Source: Calothrix sp. PCC 7103 (GTDB lineage: Bacteria > Cyanobacteriota > Cyanobacteriia > Cyanobacteriales > Nostocaceae). Taken from it: a stretch of DNA of 64,000 bases. The translations under genes were made by a program, and so were the position numbers. Within the stretch, counting starts at the first letter, position 1, and each line of letters starts with the position of its first letter. The notes beneath the pieces were generated by a model that made no database searches, was not told the origin of the DNA, and was given only the letters and a program-made list of their open reading frames with translations. The DNA is taken from NCBI RefSeq assembly GCF_000331305.1, contig NZ_KB217478.1, forward strand, positions 2,694,151-2,758,150. Direction: 5' to 3'. Below are positions 47,526 through 57,395 of the stretch, in pieces.

Positions 47526-49118
47526 ATGCCAGGTACTAATACCACTAATACAATAACCCGCACATACGACATAATTGCTTTCGGTGATGAAGTTCCAGGC
47601 GTTTTAGCTTTGGTATGTGCTGCACGTGAGCATTTTCGTCGCACTAATAAATATCCACGTTCGTTATTGTTGTTCAAAGGTAATTCCCAATTAGGTATCG
47701 GTGGTCATTTGGTTCGTGGTGGCTTGTCTTATTTAGACCGCTCGGTTGTACCTCAAGCAATTCGCAGTCAATATGGTTTGGCTGTTTATGGAGATGAGTC
47801 GGATATATATAAAGAATTTTTAAAACGCACTGGTGTAGTTCAGGTGGCACTTGACCCTAAAAAAGGTGATGCGGTTTTGCGGGAAATGTTAAAGGAAATT
47901 AACGCGGATGTTCTTAGCGGTGTTGATATTGGATCGGTTATTAAACAGGGGCAAGCTATCACAGGTATTCGTCTGACTAAAGGTGAAACCTATATGGCGA
48001 AAATCTTTATTGACTCTACAGTCAACGCTGAACTAGCTGTTGCTGCTGGTGTAAGCAAGTTGAAGGGGTTTGAAACTTTTGGTTTACCAAATTCTGAGCT
48101 TTCAGTAACGCTGACTTTTGAAACTCAAGGTTTGAGTGTGCAAGCACTGAAGAATATTGAAATGCAGTATATGCTGCGTCTTGCTGATGTTAATGATGGC
48201 GAAGCACAAAGATGGATTAACATAGCAGCAGGTGGAGACCGTACACGCTTTTCTGAACTACAAGCTCCGTTTATCAATAATAAAAACGACCTCAATAAAA
48301 TTGCGCTGTATGCAGGTAGCGATTATATAGATGTTCGTAGCTTTGCACTTTCAATTGCTTACCACGCATTCCGAGGTACAGCATTATCACTAGACCAAAG
48401 CAGTGCTGTATTAGACAAAGGAAATATTGCCGTATTCCCTGACGGTAGAATGTCGTGGAACGCGCTACTATTTGACGTCAATGCCGACCAAGCTGAAGCA
48501 TTAGCTCGTGGTGATTCCAAACCCACACCTGAAATGTTCAAAGAAATGCAGCTATTAACTCAATGGTTTAAGGGTATCGGCGCCACTACCGTTACACCAG
48601 CACCAGAATTATACATCCGCCATGCAGGTAACGTTGAAGGTGCAGTTGACACACTAACAGGTGCCGAAATGCTCAAAGGAGGTGTGCCAGCATCTGAAGC
48701 ATTAGGTACATTTGGCTACCATTTTGATATCCGTGGAGGTATCGAAGGTCTCGGAGCGCGTGCATCTGAAAAAGGCTTAGGTGAAGTTAAATTAGACCCA
48801 CCACTATTTAATGTAGGCATTCAACACGCGGTATTAAAAAGCGTACCAAATATAGCAGTTATTAGCCCAGCATCAGGATTTGAAGGTTATGCATCCTCAG
48901 CAGGAAGAATTGTAGAATTCAATTGTGCAGTTGGACAAGGTATTGGTATAGCAGCAGCAATAGCAATGTTAAGCAACCGTAACCTCAACCAAATTTCAAA
49001 TAAAGAAGTGCATAATATCCTAACCAACACAGGCAAACTTTCAAAAATCTACGGTCAACCCGATGCACAGCAAGATATTGCCAGCTTAGACAATTTTGAG
49101 AATGCTTTAGCTGCGTAA
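47526..49118 (+). CDS. FAD-dependent oxidoreductase, copy 1
   Basis: 530 residues. The N-terminus YDIIAFGDEVPGVLALVCAA is a Rossmann-like start with a modified GxGxxG (GDEVPG). The family (FAD_oxidored-type) is seen from IFIDSTVNAELAVAAGV and the C-terminal flavin segment GRIVEFNCAVGQGIGIAAAI. No signal peptide. It shares clear homology along its length with the gene at 50365-51921, for example YPRSLLLFKG, YIRHAGN and GFEGYA. The substrate is unknown. A hairpin follows 15 bp after the stop. Confidence 0.82.
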   Translation: MPGTNTTNTITRTYDIIAFGDEVPGVLALVCAAREHFRRTNKYPRSLLLFKGNSQLGIGGHLVRGGLSYLDRSVVPQAIRSQYGLAVYGDESDIYKEFLKRTGVVQVALDPKKGDAVLREMLKEINADVLSGVDIGSVIKQGQAITGIRLTKGETYMAKIFIDSTVNAELAVAAGVSKLKGFETFGLPNSELSVTLTFETQGLSVQALKNIEMQYMLRLADVNDGEAQRWINIAAGGDRTRFSELQAPFINNKNDLNKIALYAGSDYIDVRSFALSIAYHAFRGTALSLDQSSAVLDKGNIAVFPDGRMSWNALLFDVNADQAEALARGDSKPTPEMFKEMQLLTQWFKGIGATTVTPAPELYIRHAGNVEGAVDTLTGAEMLKGGVPASEALGTFGYHFDIRGGIEGLGARASEKGLGEVKLDPPLFNVGIQHAVLKSVPNIAVISPASGFEGYASSAGRIVEFNCAVGQGIGIAAAIAMLSNRNLNQISNKEVHNILTNTGKLSKIYGQPDAQQDIASLDNFENALAA

Positions 49119-50364: not shown

Positions 50365-51921
50365 ATGTATGGAGTAGAGGCATCTGCACCGTCAGGGAAT
50401 CGTAATTATGACATTATCTGTTTTGGCGATGAAGTTCCAGGGATATTAACGCTTATTTGTGCTGCACGAGAGTATTATCGTCGCACCAATAGCTATCCCC
50501 GTAGCTTGTTGTTGTTTAAAGGTAGTTCTAAATTAGGAGTTGGTGGGCATGTTGTTCGTTCTGGTTTGGCATATCTAGACCGTTCTTCGGTTCCTAATAC
50601 AATTCGGCAAGAGCGAAAGCTTGATATATTTGGTGACCCATGTGCTATTTACAAAGAACTTTTACAACGCACGGGGGTAGATCAAGTAGCACTTGACCCA
50701 AGTAAAACAGATTGGGTATTGCGCGAGATGTTGCGAGAGATACACGCTAATATTTTGAGTAGTGTTGAAATTAAATCGGTTATTAAAGAAGGGCAAAAGA
50801 TACTTGGTATTGAGTTAACTAAGGATGAAACTTATTTTGCTAAACATTTTATTGATAGCACTGTGAATGGGGAACTAGCGCTTTCTGCTGGTGTGAGAAA
50901 ATTTAAAGGATTTGAAAATATTGGTTTACCAGATTCTGAACTTGCTGTAACACTTGTCTTTGAAACCCAAGGTTTGAGTGTTGAACGATTACAAAATATT
51001 GAGTATCAATACTTACAGCGTTTTACAAACCTTCAAGATAAAGAAGCACAAGATCTAATCAATCTTGCTACGGGAGGAGATGCAAATTTTGCGAACCAGT
51101 TGAGAGCAGACTTGGTTGACAAAAAAGGCTATCTCAAGACGATGGCTGTAGGTAAAGATTATATAGATATTCGTAGCAAAGCCCTTTCTATTGCTTATCA
51201 TGCGTTTCGCGGTACTAAGTTAGATATTAATCTGAGTCCAGGAATTCTTGACAACGGTAATATTGCTTTGTTATCACGAGTGCGAATGTCGTGGAATGCT
51301 TTGCTGTTCGGCTTATCTGCCAACGAAGTTGAAAAACTTGCCCGCGCTAAAGCACAACCAACGCGAAAAATGCTCGATGAAATTTTATTTATTACCAGGT
51401 GGTTTCAATTGCTTGGCGCCAGTGAAGTCAAGCCAGCCAAAGAGGTTTATATTCGTCATGCAGGTAATATTACCGATGTAATTCAACCACTTACAGGCGC
51501 CGAAATGCTGTCAGGTGGTGTTCCAACACACGAAGCTATAGGCACTTTTGGCTATGACTTCGATGTTCGTGGTGGTATTGGTAGTTTTGGCGAACACCCT
51601 GTAAATAAAGGTTTTGGTAATTTGGCTTTGTTAACAACTCCTTTATTTAACATTGGCATTCAACACGCATTACTTAAGCATGTGCCAAATTTAGCTGTAG
51701 TGAGTCCGTGTTCAGGGTTTGAAGGTTACGCTTGCTTTGCAGGTCGAATTGTTGAGTTTAACTGTGGAGTTGGGCAGGGTGTAGGTATTGCCGCAGGTAT
51801 TGCATTAGCACAAGAACGTGAACTAAATGAAGTTTCAAACAAAGAAGTGCATGATGTACTGCAAAGCACTGGGCAACTTTCCCAAATATACGGCATTACT
51901 TACGAAGTAGCTGCCGCATAA
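50365..51921 (+). CDS. FAD-dependent oxidoreductase, copy 2
   Basis: 518 residues, paralogous over its full length to 47526-49118. Shared segments include YDII.FGDEVPG, FETQGLSV, SWNALLF, YIRHAGN, LTGAEML.GGVP and GFEGYA. The flavin motif near the C-terminus is GRIVEFNCGVGQGVGIAAGI. AGGGA precedes the ATG. The copies differ at many positions, so the duplication is not recent or the copies have specialised. The reaction is unknown. Confidence 0.82.
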   Translation: MYGVEASAPSGNRNYDIICFGDEVPGILTLICAAREYYRRTNSYPRSLLLFKGSSKLGVGGHVVRSGLAYLDRSSVPNTIRQERKLDIFGDPCAIYKELLQRTGVDQVALDPSKTDWVLREMLREIHANILSSVEIKSVIKEGQKILGIELTKDETYFAKHFIDSTVNGELALSAGVRKFKGFENIGLPDSELAVTLVFETQGLSVERLQNIEYQYLQRFTNLQDKEAQDLINLATGGDANFANQLRADLVDKKGYLKTMAVGKDYIDIRSKALSIAYHAFRGTKLDINLSPGILDNGNIALLSRVRMSWNALLFGLSANEVEKLARAKAQPTRKMLDEILFITRWFQLLGASEVKPAKEVYIRHAGNITDVIQPLTGAEMLSGGVPTHEAIGTFGYDFDVRGGIGSFGEHPVNKGFGNLALLTTPLFNIGIQHALLKHVPNLAVVSPCSGFEGYACFAGRIVEFNCGVGQGVGIAAGIALAQERELNEVSNKEVHDVLQSTGQLSQIYGITYEVAAA

Positions 51922-52478: not shown

Positions 52479-52768
52479 AAATTGTTGATACAAGCTACAG
52501 TACGTTTTGCTTGAAATCCCCATAAATCAAGGAAATGCATCTTACTTATGCAAGATTATCATTGAATAAGGGGGTATGATGTAATACTTGACTTGGGTCT
52601 AAGTATTCACTCACCAATGTGACGACGTACTATTAAAGCTTGTTTCCCTAAATTTACGCAAGCAATTACGATACAGGTAGCTAATAACCTGCTTGAGTTT
52701 GACTGAAACTCATAAAATGCAAGCCTCTGCTTCAAGTATGGTGTAAATACGTTGTGCATTTTAATGCA

Positions 52769-53350
52769 TTAATACTCATAGTCAGGTAAATACTTATTTT
52801 TGAAAATCTTTCGCAGCTTACCAAGCGCACGCGACCCTCTTTTTCGCAACGCTTCTGTAGTAACTTCAGCTCCATTTGCTGATAATTTTCTCGCGATATC
52901 TTGCCATGAAAGTTGACGATAATATCGCATTATCAATAATTTTCTGTCTTCAAAGTCTAACTCTTTCAATGCTTGATTCAAGTGTTTATAAGCTTCAGTG
53001 TCTTGACTAGATTGCTGCAAACGTTCATCTGGTAAAAATTCTTCAAAGTCAAAGTTTTGATTATCTATAATTCGACATCGAGTTTCTTCTCTACTTATTT
53101 CATTGATAATGTGTAAACCAGTTGTACGTAACCAAGGAATAAGCTTGTAAACTTTTTTACCTGTGGATTCAGCTTTTGATAAGCGTGAGATAGCTTCATT
53201 AAGAATTTCATCAGGTTCATGTTTACCTAATAGCCCATATTGCCTAAGACGCAGACGGTAAAAGTTGCGTAGAACTAACTGTAATTCTTTGCTATTCAAC
53301 TCTGGAAAATGATTTTCAAACGATTTTTTAACTGCACCTACTTGTGACAT
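52769..53350 (-). CDS. ECF-like sigma factor, module A
   Basis: 193 residues. Region 2-like part: LVLRNFYRLRLRQYG, PDEILNEAISRLSKA and WLRTTGLHIINEISREE. Region 4-like part: LLIMRYYRQLSWQDIARKL and the recognition helix region LRKRGSRALGKLRKIF. Size and layout fit an ECF-type or minimal sigma-70 protein. It is clearly paralogous to the gene at 54649-55239. It follows the helical gene at 53641-54333 on the same strand after 290 bp. The target promoters are unknown. Confidence 0.82.
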   Translation of the reverse strand: MSQVGAVKKSFENHFPELNSKELQLVLRNFYRLRLRQYGLLGKHEPDEILNEAISRLSKAESTGKKVYKLIPWLRTTGLHIINEISREETRCRIIDNQNFDFEEFLPDERLQQSSQDTEAYKHLNQALKELDFEDRKLLIMRYYRQLSWQDIARKLSANGAEVTTEALRKRGSRALGKLRKIFKNKYLPDYEY

Positions 53351-53640
53351 ACTGCTGATTCCTGGTTACGGTAGACAATATCACAAGGGTTGAAAAATTG
53401 TAAGTAACGCATTATAAACGAATATATGGGTGTATGACACAATCAATTGAAATCGCGTTACAAGCTTTTTCGCTATCCTTGCTACAAATTAATGACTTAC
53501 TGCTTGCTTATGTGACATAATTACCTATAGGAGTGTTGTTTTTTCGTCTTTAAGCAAGCAGGAAACCGATTTTAACCTGTTTAATAAAAGCAGTTTGGCT
53601 TGTTGTCGGTGTTTATTTGATTTATGTCCTACCCAAAATA

Positions 53641-54333
53641 TTATTCATCAGATAATCTCTGTTCAAGGTACTTAATAAAAATCTCCTTAAACCTTTTTGT
53701 TATACTATTCTCTTCGGAAGCATTAGTCTCTGTTATCCCTGCTTCCTCAGCAATTGCTGCGTCAATTTGGTTAATAAAATCGTCTAGTTGAGGGTCAAAT
53801 TGAGCAAGTTCTAAAATTAATAGCATTCGTTTTGCATCACTATCTGTAAGATTTGGTAATGAAGAAAGTCGATAGTACTCTTGCATTAACCATAACAGTT
53901 CTTCATCTATTTCTTGCAGTTTTGAATATAAAGCATTATTCACGTTTAAATTACAGTTATTTATCAATTTTGAAAGCAAATTTTTCATCTGTCTTCTTTC
54001 TTTAACTTCATGTTCCAATTGAAATAGTAAATGAGTATTATTATTGGCTTCATATAATAGCTCTTTTAAATCTATACTGGAATAATTAGTTTTGATTTTA
54101 CGACAGACTCTACTTGATGCAATTGTTAACTTCTGATTTATGTTTTGAGCTTGAGTTTTATTTCGCTCTGTATCTTCGATGAGTATTTGTAATATAGTAC
54201 TCAGTCTTACTATTGATATATGGCATTGCGAATTACTTGCCATGACTGTATTCTGCCAAGCATCATACTCTTGCAGGTCATTGAACAGGTTCTGTCCAGG
54301 TGTGATACGTGGGTCAAATTCTTCAAATATCAT
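53641..54333 (-). CDS. Helical partner protein, module A
   Basis: 230 residues, soluble, nearly all helical by composition. The C-terminal part has EYYRLSSLPNLTDSDAKRML followed by LILELAQFDPQLDDFINQID, a segment also found in the module B protein at 55462-55860. The N-terminal 120 residues are absent from module B. No zinc or membrane anchor of classic anti-sigma factors is seen. An anti-sigma or adaptor role is inferred only from its repeated pairing with a sigma-like gene. Confidence 0.7.
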   Translation of the reverse strand: MIFEEFDPRITPGQNLFNDLQEYDAWQNTVMASNSQCHISIVRLSTILQILIEDTERNKTQAQNINQKLTIASSRVCRKIKTNYSSIDLKELLYEANNNTHLLFQLEHEVKERRQMKNLLSKLINNCNLNVNNALYSKLQEIDEELLWLMQEYYRLSSLPNLTDSDAKRMLLILELAQFDPQLDDFINQIDAAIAEEAGITETNASEENSITKRFKEIFIKYLEQRLSDE

Positions 54334-54648
54334 TAACTTAGATTTCCTAACTCTCCGTTTGTTAATGATTTTATAGATATAAATGTGACCTTGATTTAGA
54401 TACTTTATTGTAAAGTTTATAAAAGTAAATTATAAAATTATTATATAGGGAGCAGTTAAATGACAAAATCCATTTTACTGAATTCACAAATACCAAGAAT
54501 TGAGAAGGCAGTATAAGTATAATTTCCTAGCCTGTGACGTATACTGCCAGGAGAATGAAAATCACACTACGTTATTTCACTAAATTCAAAAACTGAAATA
54601 TTGTTTTGGTGATTCTTACTACCTAATTTTGACAAATTATTAAGATTT
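54334..54648. other. Intergenic region between modules A and B
   Basis: 315 bp. A stem of ggcagtata (54507-54515) and tatactgcc (about 54539-54547) spans a 23-nt loop. On the plus strand a GGGAG followed by an ATG at 54460 opens an 18-codon frame ending at 54516, partly inside the stem. No other feature is visible. Confidence 0.45.
54460..54516 (+). CDS. Possible 18-aa leader-type peptide
   Basis: ATG at 54460 with AGGGAG 7-8 nt upstream and a TATATA 10 bp before that; the peptide is MTKSILLNSQIPRIEKAV. Its end overlaps an inverted repeat (54507-54547), which is the arrangement of a leader peptide with a stem-loop, but no gene follows on this strand. It may be chance. Confidence 0.15.
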   Translation: MTKSILLNSQIPRIEKAV

Positions 54649-55239
54649 TTATACATCTAGTTTGTCTGGGGGTAACAAGCGCATTTTATCTCGATATATT
54701 TTTCTTAGACACTTAAGAACACGAGAACCTCGTTGCCGCAGTGTTGGTACTGAAATACTTTCACCTCGACTTGCATAAAGTTGCGCGATTTCATTCCAAG
54801 ACATATTATCGTAAAAACGCATTACTAGGAGTTCGCGTTCGCTAGCTTGTAAATGTAGTATACTCTTACCAAGTAGTTGATAAGTTTCTTCGGTTTCAAG
54901 TTGTTCAACTCCGATAGTGTGAGAATTCTGGATGTAAACTGATTTGGATGATGTTTCATTCACATCTATATTAAGAGTTGTAAACTTGCTTTCATGGCGC
55001 CGCAACTCTAAGATATAAAAGAAGCCAGTTGTTTTTAACCAGGCTTCTTGGTTATAAATATTTTTACCCATTTTGAGCGCATATTCGAGACGAAGTACTG
55101 CTTCTGAAAGAATTTCTTCTGGTTGATAACGACCCTTTAATCCAACTTGAGCCAAACGTAAACGAAAGAATACAACTAATCTTGCGTACATTTGTTTTAG
55201 TGGTTTATGTAAAGAGTGGTTCGGTGTGAATCCAAGCAT
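54649..55239 (-). CDS. ECF-like sigma factor, module B
   Basis: 196 residues. FFRLRLAQVGLKGRYQPEEI, LSEAVLRLEYALKMGKN and WLKTTGFFYILELRRHE match the region 2 part of module A, and LLVMRFYDNMSWNEIAQLY with LRQRGSRVLKCLRKIY match region 4. A linker of about 35 residues is Ser/Thr/Asn-rich. GAGAGGGA precedes the ATG, so it should be well translated. It follows the helical protein of module B after 221 bp that contains a terminator. Confidence 0.82.
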   Translation of the reverse strand: MLGFTPNHSLHKPLKQMYARLVVFFRLRLAQVGLKGRYQPEEILSEAVLRLEYALKMGKNIYNQEAWLKTTGFFYILELRRHESKFTTLNIDVNETSSKSVYIQNSHTIGVEQLETEETYQLLGKSILHLQASERELLVMRFYDNMSWNEIAQLYASRGESISVPTLRQRGSRVLKCLRKIYRDKMRLLPPDKLDV

Positions 55240-55372
55240 CGGGATTTCCCTCTCAAAAATAAATTTTTATAGGAAAAAAATACCCACACATATCTCTCGT
55301 GATAGTGTCTATTTAAAAATGAAGATATTCGATAATTTGTGACAAACTGAACTTAGGTAATAAGCTAAAAAT

Positions 55373-55393
55373 CCAGCTTTGCAACAAAGCTGG
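55373..55393 (-). terminator. Intrinsic terminator inside module B
   Basis: On the minus strand CCAGCTTTG and CAAAGCTGG form a perfect 9-bp stem with a 3-nt loop, followed by ATTTTTAG. It lies about 70 bp past the stop of the helical protein and before the sigma gene, so the two genes of module B are probably transcribed separately or by attenuated read-through. Confidence 0.75.
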
Positions 55394-55461
55394 TTATTTC
55401 AGAACTATTTAGGTGCCTTTATAGTACTTATGCTTAAAAATAGTACTTGCGTTTGTCAACA

Positions 55462-55860
55462 CTAAAGTACTATTATATTAGAACAGAAAAGCGTAGAATC
55501 GTTTAACGTTGCCTTGGTAGCTAAAAATGCATCAATAGCATTAATCAAATTACTAAGAGTGACATCAATTTCAGCGAAACTCAAAATTATTAGCATTCTT
55601 TGAGAATTAGACTCATTCAATTCTGCTAGAGAAGCTAATCGATAGTATTCGTAAGCAAGAGTGACTAAAGCTTCATCAGATGTATCAAATTTTATTTTAG
55701 TTACAATTGCCTGTAGGGTTCTCGCCATCTTTTTTTGATACTCAGAGCAATTGATATGTTTATTGCTTTCATTTTCAGATGCGACTCGATTTAAATATGG
55801 AAATGTGCTTTTAGCTCTAGGTGAGCAACTTGCAATATATCGATTCAATTTTTCTTGCAT
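55462..55860 (-). CDS. Helical partner protein, module B
   Basis: 132 residues from the ATG at 55858-55860, which has GGAG 6 nt upstream (an in-frame GTG at 55872 would include this site). The core YEYYRLASLAELNESNSQRM followed by LIILSFAEIDVTLSNLINAI is homologous to the C-terminal part of the module A protein. The N-terminal part is shorter and unrelated by eye. It ends in a hydrophobic FCSNIIVL. Function unknown; linkage to the sigma gene is the only clue. Confidence 0.68.
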   Translation of the reverse strand: MQEKLNRYIASCSPRAKSTFPYLNRVASENESNKHINCSEYQKKMARTLQAIVTKIKFDTSDEALVTLAYEYYRLASLAELNESNSQRMLIILSFAEIDVTLSNLINAIDAFLATKATLNDSTLFCSNIIVL

Positions 55861-56225
55861 AATTATCTCCACAATCTAACTGGAGAATCATGTTTATTAC
55901 AGTTATATATGTTGAGTTGAACGTCTTTGTGACATGTATGTTATAAAGTCAACATCATATATTTATCTATTGGTTAGGCTGTATATCAATAGATAGAATA
56001 TATGCTGTGCATCGGTAGCTAATAGTATATATAAACCCTGTTTCTAGGATTTTATAATTGGTAAAATAATTTACATAAATGAGAACTTATAAGACCTAAT
56101 ACTGTTATGAGATGGGCTTATAAAAATTGTTGCAATTTTTGACAGTATTTTTGACGATAGGAAAAATTACTCAAATACAGATTATGATGTAATCCTGCAC
56201 TCTTTTCGCTTACATATTCAGACCA
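55861..56225. other. Intergenic region between module B and serC
   Basis: About 365 bp of AT-rich DNA between two divergent genes. It should hold both promoters. No repeat or gene is seen. Confidence 0.45.
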
Positions 56226-57395
56226 ATGCTAGAAATGCTATCTCTTCCAACCGTTAAACCTAGCGTCCCTCATTTCTCTTCAGGCCCATGTGCAAAGCGT
56301 CCCGGCTGGTCTGTTTCAAATCTGAGTAGCGCTTGCGTGGGACGTTCGCACCGTTCAGCAGATGGTAAAGCCAAATTAGCTGAAGTTATCGAACTATCGA
56401 AAAAAATTCTTGGTGTCCCGGCAAATTACCGTCTGGGAATTGTACCAGCTTCTGATACAGGCGCCGTAGAAATGGCGATGTGGTCACTTTTAGGTAAGTT
56501 ACCCCTTGATATTCTCGCGTGGGAAAGTTTTGGTCAGGAATGGGTGAAAGATGTTACCGACGAGTTGAAATTATCTGATGTGCGCTTAATGAAGGCACCT
56601 TACGGTAGCTTACCCGACTTTAGCCAAGTTGATTTTAGTCACGACGTAGTATTTTTATGGAATGGTACCACATCAGGAGCGCGCGTACCAAATGCCGACT
56701 GGATACCAGACGACCGCGAAGGTTTAACAATTTGCGACGCCACCTCAGCAGTATTCGCAATGGATGTAGACTGGTCGAAACTTGATGTTGTTACTTACTC
56801 GTGGCAAAAGGTACTTGGTGGAGAAGCACAACATGGTGTTATTGTACTATCACCACGTGCTGTTGAACGTTTAGAGACTTACCAAGCACCTCGACCTTTA
56901 CCAAAATTATTCCGCATGACCGAAAAAGGTAAGCTGATTGAAGGTATTTTTAAAGGCGATACTATTAATACTCCATCGATGTTGTGCGTAGAAGATGCAC
57001 TCGACGGGTTAAAGTGGGCAGAAAGTATTGGTGGTCTTTCAGGATTAATTAATCGTAGCGAAGCAAACCTTGCAGTAATTACAAAATGGGTTGAGCAAAG
57101 TAACTGGGCTGCATTTTTAGCAGAAACACCAGAAATTCGCTCTTGCACATCAATTTGTCTCAAAATTACAGACGAATGGTTTACTGGCTTAAACCCAGAA
57201 CAACAAGCTGAATGTGCGAAGAAACTCGCAAAAGTACTCGAAAAACAAAACGTTGCTTTCGATATTGCAGCTTACCGCTCGGCACCTCCAGGTTTACGCA
57301 TTTGGGGAGGCGCCACTGTTGAAACCAGTGATATAGAAGCACTACTTCCTTGGCTAGACTGGGGTTTCGCAACAGTCAAAAATGAAATGAAGTAA
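56226..57395 (+). CDS. serC: Phosphoserine aminotransferase (SerC_2 type)
   Basis: 389 residues, fold type I PLP enzyme. The start [20 protein letters not shown] and the sequence GRSHRS are typical of the second phosphoserine transaminase family. [10 protein letters not shown] precedes the Schiff-base lysine Lys195 in SYSWQK-like [24 protein letters not shown] is another family motif. The enzyme converts 3-phosphohydroxypyruvate and glutamate to phosphoserine in serine synthesis. The gene stands alone; a dispersed hairpin follows. Confidence 0.9.

Follow-up and report, generated by a model that had tools for sequence, protein, structure and literature searches.

Does the repeated pairing of a sigma factor gene with a gene for a small helical protein in Calothrix sp. 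PCC 7103 represent a regulatory system of its own, and what would the helical protein do in it? The question is raised by a locus within a 64,000-nucleotide stretch of contig NZ_KB217478.1 (positions 2,694,151 to 2,758,150; hereafter the window), in which two genes for sigma factors of the extracytoplasmic function (ECF) type, sigma A and sigma B, are each preceded on the same strand by a partner gene, as an earlier note on this DNA had described. Along the minus strand the genes follow one another as partner B, sigma B, partner A and sigma A, separated by 222, 315 and 290 nt. Our analysis demonstrated that these genes belong to a real and widespread cyanobacterial family of ECF sigma factors and partners, which we take, with a probability of roughly 0.6, to be an ECF sigma/anti-sigma-like family with its own undescribed regulator domain and autoregulated promoters. 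The features of the locus, in window positions, are the following.

55462..55872, minus strand: partner B, 136 amino acids from a GTG start, with the conserved segment near its C-terminus
55504..55692, minus strand: conserved helical segment of partner B, residues 61-123 (A1 profile, 83.0 bits)
55373..55393, minus strand: terminator-like hairpin (stem of 9 bp) in the gap from partner B to sigma B
54649..55239, minus strand: sigma B, ECF-type sigma factor, 196 amino acids (family profile, 215.5 bits)
53641..54333, minus strand: partner A, 230 amino acids, with a helical hairpin, the conserved segment and a last helix in the AlphaFold model
53914..54234, minus strand: hairpin formed by helices 34-81 and 86-140 at the N-terminus of partner A (block pLDDT 71-82 over residues 41-140)
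53734..53922, minus strand: conserved helical segment of partner A, residues 138-200 (A1 profile, 89.0 bits; pLDDT 89-98 over residues 141-200)
52769..53350, minus strand: sigma A, ECF-type sigma factor, 193 amino acids (Pfam Sigma70_r4)

On sequence grounds sigma A and sigma B are ECF-type sigma factors, a class of proteins of about 190 amino acids that contain regions 2 and 4 but lack region 3. A profile built from 31 family sigmas matches solved ECF sigma factors, best of all SigW (5wuq; residues 6-186, E 4.1e-8), and NCBIfam sigma70-ECF scores 42.1 bits in sigma A and 40.4 bits in sigma B, both just under the cut-off of 42.9. In the Pfam scan Sigma70_r4 was found in sigma A at 27.0 bits (above the cut-off of 24.1) and in sigma B at 23.6 bits (just below it), and no region 2 was reported for either protein. 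The two genes are indeed paralogous, as had been claimed, their products sharing 35% identity (E 5.8e-30), and no other match to sigma A in the 11.58 Mb source genome is better than E 0.002. The scores of family sigmas across the 388 class genomes are at least 74.8 bits, those of the next match listed at most 63.1 bits, and at least 121 sigmas score above 70. At five loci (L079, L083, L090, L101 and L229) the sigma profile aligns twice to the sigma open reading frame (ORF), the two matches either overlapping or following one another, which may reflect part of a second sigma domain.

The partners have a three-helix segment in common. Partner B, in which an ATG at 55860 lies four codons into the GTG-started ORF, aligns to residues 138-206 of partner A (42% identity, E 1.7e-10); the segment starts at residue 138 in partner A and at residue 61 in partner B, and both proteins contain the motif quoted in the earlier note, as EYYRLSSLPNLTDSDAKRML in partner A and EYYRLASLAELNESNSQRML in partner B. 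Their N-termini differ, as was also stated, that of partner B being shorter, but the difference amounts to about 77 residues before the segment and 94 in total length instead of the proposed 120 or so. The AlphaFold model of partner A (mean pLDDT 76.9, pTM 0.46) contains a long hairpin (34-140), three high-confidence helices (144-158, 164-179 and 181-197) and then a helix at 208-229, and the same three helices are modelled in a relative with a peptidoglycan-binding half (L155), the fourth having low confidence there. Neither Pfam nor NCBIfam gave a family above cut-off for the two window partners, nor a zinc or membrane domain; the claim that such domains are lacking thus applies to both window partners but not to the family as a whole, since a transmembrane helix is predicted to follow the segment in 10 of 73 linked partners. 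No homology to a known anti-sigma domain, in particular to the class I anti-sigma domain (ASDI), was detected in Pfam, the Protein Data Bank (PDB) or the Foldseek matches listed. Pfam yielded no anti-sigma family for 65 partners at E 0.001 or for 11 segments at E up to 10, and the segment matched no anti-sigma domain by sequence in the PDB. With Foldseek, the best 50 of 699 matches to partner A were helical or coiled-coil proteins (best E 0.069) and the 37 matches to the L155 relative were led by peptidoglycan-binding domains (best E 0.19), with no anti-sigma domain in either set.

The segment and the sigma family are closely associated across cyanobacteria. The segment profile gave at least 141 matches in at least 72 of the 388 genomes (E <=0.01), several of them being two copies within one protein; because at most 16 segment and 8 sigma candidates were scored per genome, these counts are lower bounds. 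For 81 of the 141 segments a listed family sigma (rows of at least 60 bits, n=123) is present no more than 3 kb away, at a median distance of about 465 bases, so that the segment does not occur mostly apart from sigma genes, and the earlier proposal of a repeated regulator pair, in which the helical protein is likely a sigma regulator, gains support from this linkage. Among the linked segments 44 are divergent from the sigma, 25 are on the same strand with the sigma first, 10 are partner first, as in the window, and 2 are convergent. When only segments of at least 25 bits were considered, 77 of 125 were linked, compared to about 0.36 expected if every genome is assumed to be 5.5 Mb (75 of 122 without the source genome), with 55 of 69 linked outside the genus g164 and 22 of 56 inside it. 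Likewise, 54 genomes have both genes, 9 only the partner, 10 only the sigma and 315 neither (Fisher p 5e-46), and the numbers of sigmas and partners per genome are correlated among genomes with either (rho 0.79). Moreover, the sigma and partner distance matrices of 73 pairs are correlated (r=0.79, with 0 of 2000 permutations as high), also for sigmas more than 50% different (r=0.57). In a separate search with partner A alone, 7 of 148 genomes of the order were matched, the source genome included; 9 of the 10 loci outside the source genome had a sigma homologue nearby, some of them partial, and at the tenth (L009) a partial one was found by a better profile. A GTDB-based collection searched with one narrow sigma pattern returned 41 loci, all with cyanobacterial titles, of which 24 have the segment in their flanks. 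A mere chance neighbourhood of unrelated genes might be read from the many unlinked copies, 34 of 48 of which fall in g164; the statistics of linkage, co-occurrence and the shared site described below make chance very unlikely, and we consider it extremely improbable.

Each of the four window genes is, in addition, preceded by a bipartite promoter-like site.

55907..55933, minus strand: GTCACA-N16-CATAT, before partner B
55317..55343, minus strand: GTCACA-N16-CATTT, before sigma B
54363..54389, minus strand: GTCACA-N16-CATTA, before partner A
53490..53516, minus strand: GTCACA-N16-CATTA, before sigma A

In an upstream alignment of five genus genomes the site reads GTCAC(A/G)-N16-CAT(T/A)(A/T), with a constant 16-nt spacer and four sites per locus in all five, and the site can be written more broadly as GTCAC(A/G)-N16-CA(C/T)WW. 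The pattern has five matches in the window, four of them the gene-upstream sites, against 0.22 expected, a figure with some circularity, these four sites having themselves supplied the pattern; independent support comes from the search outside the genus. There, the site precedes both genes of a Fischerella plasmid pair, and a de novo dyad search upstream of family genes returned GTCAC-N17-CACT first, in 49 of 173 genes and in 1 of 355 controls. In its strict form, GTCAC(A/G)-N16-CACTA, the dyad was found before 23 of 84 partners and before 18 of 94 sigmas but before none of 352 controls; in a relaxed form it was found before 41 of 84 partners and 39 of 94 sigmas (80 of 178 together) compared to 3 of 352 controls. 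As the redundancy filter applied before the de novo search had removed little (173 of 178 genes left), the test was repeated on the first members of 60%-identity clusters, where the relaxed site was present in 21 of 57 and 26 of 58. In 56 of 61 sites a purine lies 8 nt past the -10-like element, as a transcription start would show, at a position chosen after inspection of the sites. Since one promoter-like site is common to all four window genes, a module-specific output is doubtful, and the terminator-like hairpin between partner B and sigma B suggests that these two genes are transcribed separately; five terminator-like sites were found on both strands within 52500-56300, compared to a mean of 1.7 in shuffles.

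Searches for a wider regulon with these patterns found none, few sites beyond the family loci having been inspected. The pattern GTCACRN16CATWWW had 22 matches in the source genome, four of them at the locus, and its reversed form, used as control, had 29. Five further sites, two of them in the source genome, were inspected: four lie inside an ORF on one of the two strands and one is intergenic, with no downstream ORF of at least 100 amino acids. In ten genomes chosen for carrying the family, the strict TGTCACAN16CACTA had 16 sites against 2 for the control, 12 of them at family loci and 4 elsewhere, and none in the source genome. At L275:1243-1518 and L284:1390-1785 strict sites overlap the start of a similar small ORF that precedes the sigma gene, and at L278:1561-1833 the partner and sigma genes flank an ORF of 90 amino acids, containing CxxC pairs and a hydrophobic stretch, that has a strict site of its own.

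The presence of the same site before partner genes as before sigma genes, and before this further small ORF at L278, would also fit a partner that serves as a co-regulated output gene, one that the sigma controls without contact to its product, the linkage reflecting shared regulation. A constant small segment on very varied domains, however, fits direct contact better, as do weak single-chain joins with sigma-like regions and the correlated divergence in distant pairs, and we regard an output gene as unlikely. The relaxed site is also kept in 5 of 6 short partners taken as unlinked (L117, L126-L129), as it might be in a co-regulated helper, whereas it is absent from 7 of 7 long unlinked segment proteins; it was likewise absent before partnerless sigmas, namely 9 distinct fused ones and 14 unfused ones at L130 and L138-L153 (same-gene entries merged). 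A partner acting as positive co-factor or appropriator, which would bind the sigma or its polymerase and either be required for activity or bring the polymerase to a place such as membrane or wall, would be consistent with these short partners and with the frequency of divergent or separate transcription units. However, some of the short partners are on short contigs, from which the sigma may be broken off, architectures with sensor-like modules or membrane anchors are typical of sequestering regulators, and long fused sigmas manage without a linked partner, so that a positive role appears rather unlikely.

The architectures themselves are varied and sensor-like. In 65 partners, linked and unlinked, Pfam detected PG_binding_1 (24), DPBB_1, which is RlpA-like (2), CDO_I cupin (2), TPS (1) and pentapeptide repeats (1). 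The 73 distinct linked partners comprise 29 with a peptidoglycan-binding motif and without later membrane helix, 22 with fewer than 60 residues after the segment, the 10 with a membrane helix after it, as predicted by simple hydropathy, and 12 others; a membrane-like stretch precedes the segment in one. In two unlinked proteins, at L231 and L232, the segment shares its chain with a weakly sigma-like region (20.7 and 10.0 bits). Conversely, 43 of the 121 family sigmas have no linked partner, at least two of these adjoining weak partners below threshold (L131, 13.7 bits; L134, 15.5 bits). None of the 8 sigma ORFs of at least 340 amino acids, a class defined after the data had been seen, has a linked partner, compared to 78 of 113 others with one (p 1.6e-4). 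The domain scan of the partnerless sigmas, L234 and L235 excepted, identified fusions to EAD1 and TRADD-N (L178), PIN (L179, on a Nostoc plasmid), TPR (L132), TRADD-N (L143, L145 and the 447-amino-acid protein of L142), and NfeD-like, NB-ARC and CHAT domains (L175). The L178 protein (L178:3026-4570, Calothrix sp. NIES-4105 plasmid2) has 514 amino acids, includes a sigma domain 57% identical to sigma A and is annotated as hypothetical, and near it lies a gene annotated as RNA polymerase subunit beta' that matches the RNA_pol_Rpb1_5 domain; the L175 protein (L175:3929-7411) has 1160 amino acids.

These fusions, together with plasmid carriage and a reported association of TRADD-N with ECF-like helix-turn-helix domains (PMC8195603), raise the question of whether the family belongs to a conflict or defence network of the EAD/TRADD-N type, in which invaders or cell damage would lead the sigma to trigger a response, with the partner as one of several interchangeable sensors. 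However, the Pfam scan of the four window proteins showed no EAD, TRADD-N, NTPase, nuclease or other effector domain, they gave no PADLOC match, and 12 of the 16 strict sites sit at sigma/partner loci themselves; such a role is decidedly unlikely. Neither a caspase nor DUF1822 was found in nine window proteins scanned in and around the locus.

We consider the partner to be probably a regulator of the sigma because of the linkage, the co-occurrence, the correlated divergence, the sensor-like modules, the single-chain joins, the partnerless long fusions and the shared site. According to this anti-sigma-like model, the three-helix segment and the following helix of the partner would hold the ECF sigma in check, while the rest of the partner would sense a signal through peptidoglycan-binding, cupin, RlpA-like or membrane-anchored parts or, in the window, through the long helical hairpin. 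The signal would free the sigma to direct RNA polymerase to GTCACA-N16-CA(C/T)TA promoters, and the freed sigma would raise both sigma and partner, forming a self-limiting loop. We infer that the partner binds the sigma, that it inhibits rather than helps, that the sigma reads the site, and every signal named here. A further and more tentative suggestion, to which we give somewhat less than even odds, is that the segment constitutes a separate cyanobacterial sigma-controlling class, unrelated to known anti-sigma domains, which links one sigma family to interchangeable sensors including soluble peptidoglycan-binding ones, and that the EAD1, TRADD-N, PIN, NB-ARC and CHAT fusions turn conflict signals into transcription.

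Several observations weigh against the anti-sigma-like model. The segment has no sequence or fold match to known anti-sigma domains in Pfam, the PDB or the Foldseek matches listed, and 60 of the 141 segments have no listed family sigma within 3 kb; as many as 34 of the 48 unlinked segments of at least 25 bits are in the single genus g164, and there are 9 genomes with such a segment and no family sigma and 10 with the reverse. The divergent arrangement is the commonest (44 of 81), and divergent order is unusual for co-transcribed sigma/anti-sigma pairs. The relaxed site is absent from 98 of 178 family genes, and a different regulator could own a site of the GTCAC type. Shared species history inflates the correlation of sigma and partner distances, and none of the 29 partners with a peptidoglycan-binding motif has a membrane helix following the segment. 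The source genome itself contains a third segment copy (L001) without any sigma within about 6 kb, with a predicted membrane helix and, by eye, a coiled-coil-like tail; tblastn beside it gave nothing convincing as a sigma remnant (best E 0.66), and in a relative, L227, a sigma is present at the corresponding place. A fourth, weak copy (L002, E 0.36) follows a different sigma-like gene: at L002:5391-11739 (source genome C7:5716000-5729000) this gene precedes a helical protein with a faint segment of 15.6 bits, accompanied by an IrrE-like peptidase (Peptidase_M78), two proteins without Pfam match, one of them ATPase-like by eye, and a metallophosphoesterase.

Similar arrangements are known from other ECF systems. 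As in pairs of ECF sigmas with ASDI proteins, a small helical regulator fused to sensor-like modules of various kinds is encoded next to an ECF sigma, with membrane-anchored versions and a promoter-like site that may serve autoregulation. The ChrR-type class I anti-sigma factor, with its zinc anti-sigma domain, carries a cupin according to PMC8999054, and two relatives of the window partners likewise have a cupin. In class I anti-sigma factors three helices bind region 4 and a fourth binds region 2, as PMC7406223 describes, and the three helices and later helix in the partner A model may recall this layout, a resemblance rather than membership. Unlike ASDI proteins, the two window partners have no zinc motif by eye and no detectable sequence or fold relation to the class, and the family differs from ASDI pairs in its mostly divergent gene order, the long helical hairpin of partner A and the peptidoglycan-binding modules without membrane helix. 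Class II (CnrY) and class III (the RsbN/BldN pair) comprise short helical sigma binders that share little sequence with class I (PMC7406223); the partners resemble them in their short helical nature, with no PDB match to either in a search that did not extend to direct comparison of sequences. Kaur et al. (2021; PMC8195603) reported TRADD-N with ECF-like helix-turn-helix domains and EACC2-caspase loci with an ECF sigma and DUF1822, similar to the present family in that ECF-like sigmas are joined to or beside signalling domains, some family sigmas carrying TRADD-N or EAD1; the section of that paper on these systems mentions neither the helical segment nor the two-gene pair. ECF sigmas with fused extensions (ECF41 and others; PMC8999054) are comparable where the partner is unlinked, the sigma being probably controlled by the attached domain. 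In contrast to the ECF41 type, the domains attached in relatives include EAD1, PIN, TPR, TRADD-N and NB-ARC/CHAT, and the window sigmas have none. Literature searches, with the main ECF classification outside the comparison, found no published work naming the segment-bearing partner, and an existing ECF group may already include the sigma/partner pair.

The history of the two pairs can be read from a tree and from the genus genomes. The tree, built on 29 chosen rows, puts sigma A and sigma B in two distinct clades of 100/99 support each; sigma A joins plasmid sigmas fused to PIN and to EAD1 domains (91/87 and 98/96), sigma B joins a Fischerella plasmid sigma (87/85), and one group (91/95) unites sigma A, sigma B and three plasmid sigmas. 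In seven genus genomes the four-gene tandem is intact in five and shortened in one, and in one only sigma remnants lie between the same flanking genes; the tandem is thus at least as old as the genus. Of the tandem duplication postulated in the earlier note, the paralogy of the sigmas and the tandem arrangement hold, whereas recent copying is unsupported, since sigma A and sigma B have, with moderate support, different nearest relatives, some on plasmids; to judge from the sequences, an old duplication with later spread is possible. All four window genes show dN/dS values of 0.13-0.51 in 40 of 40 pairwise comparisons among five genus genomes and are under purifying selection across the genus. 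Near the locus, the window also contains two similar FAD-dependent oxidoreductases (47526-49118 and 50365-51921, both FAD_oxidored).

In summary, many ECF sigmas have neighbours of unknown role, and the present family offers a defined partner domain, a candidate promoter and genomes with one to several copies. The fused sigmas, the unlinked copies and the decayed locus represent natural experiments for the control of sigma factors, and the peptidoglycan-binding partners without membrane helix pose the question of wall sensing from the cytoplasm. Moreover, one ECF sigma family is tied to TRADD-N and EAD domains.

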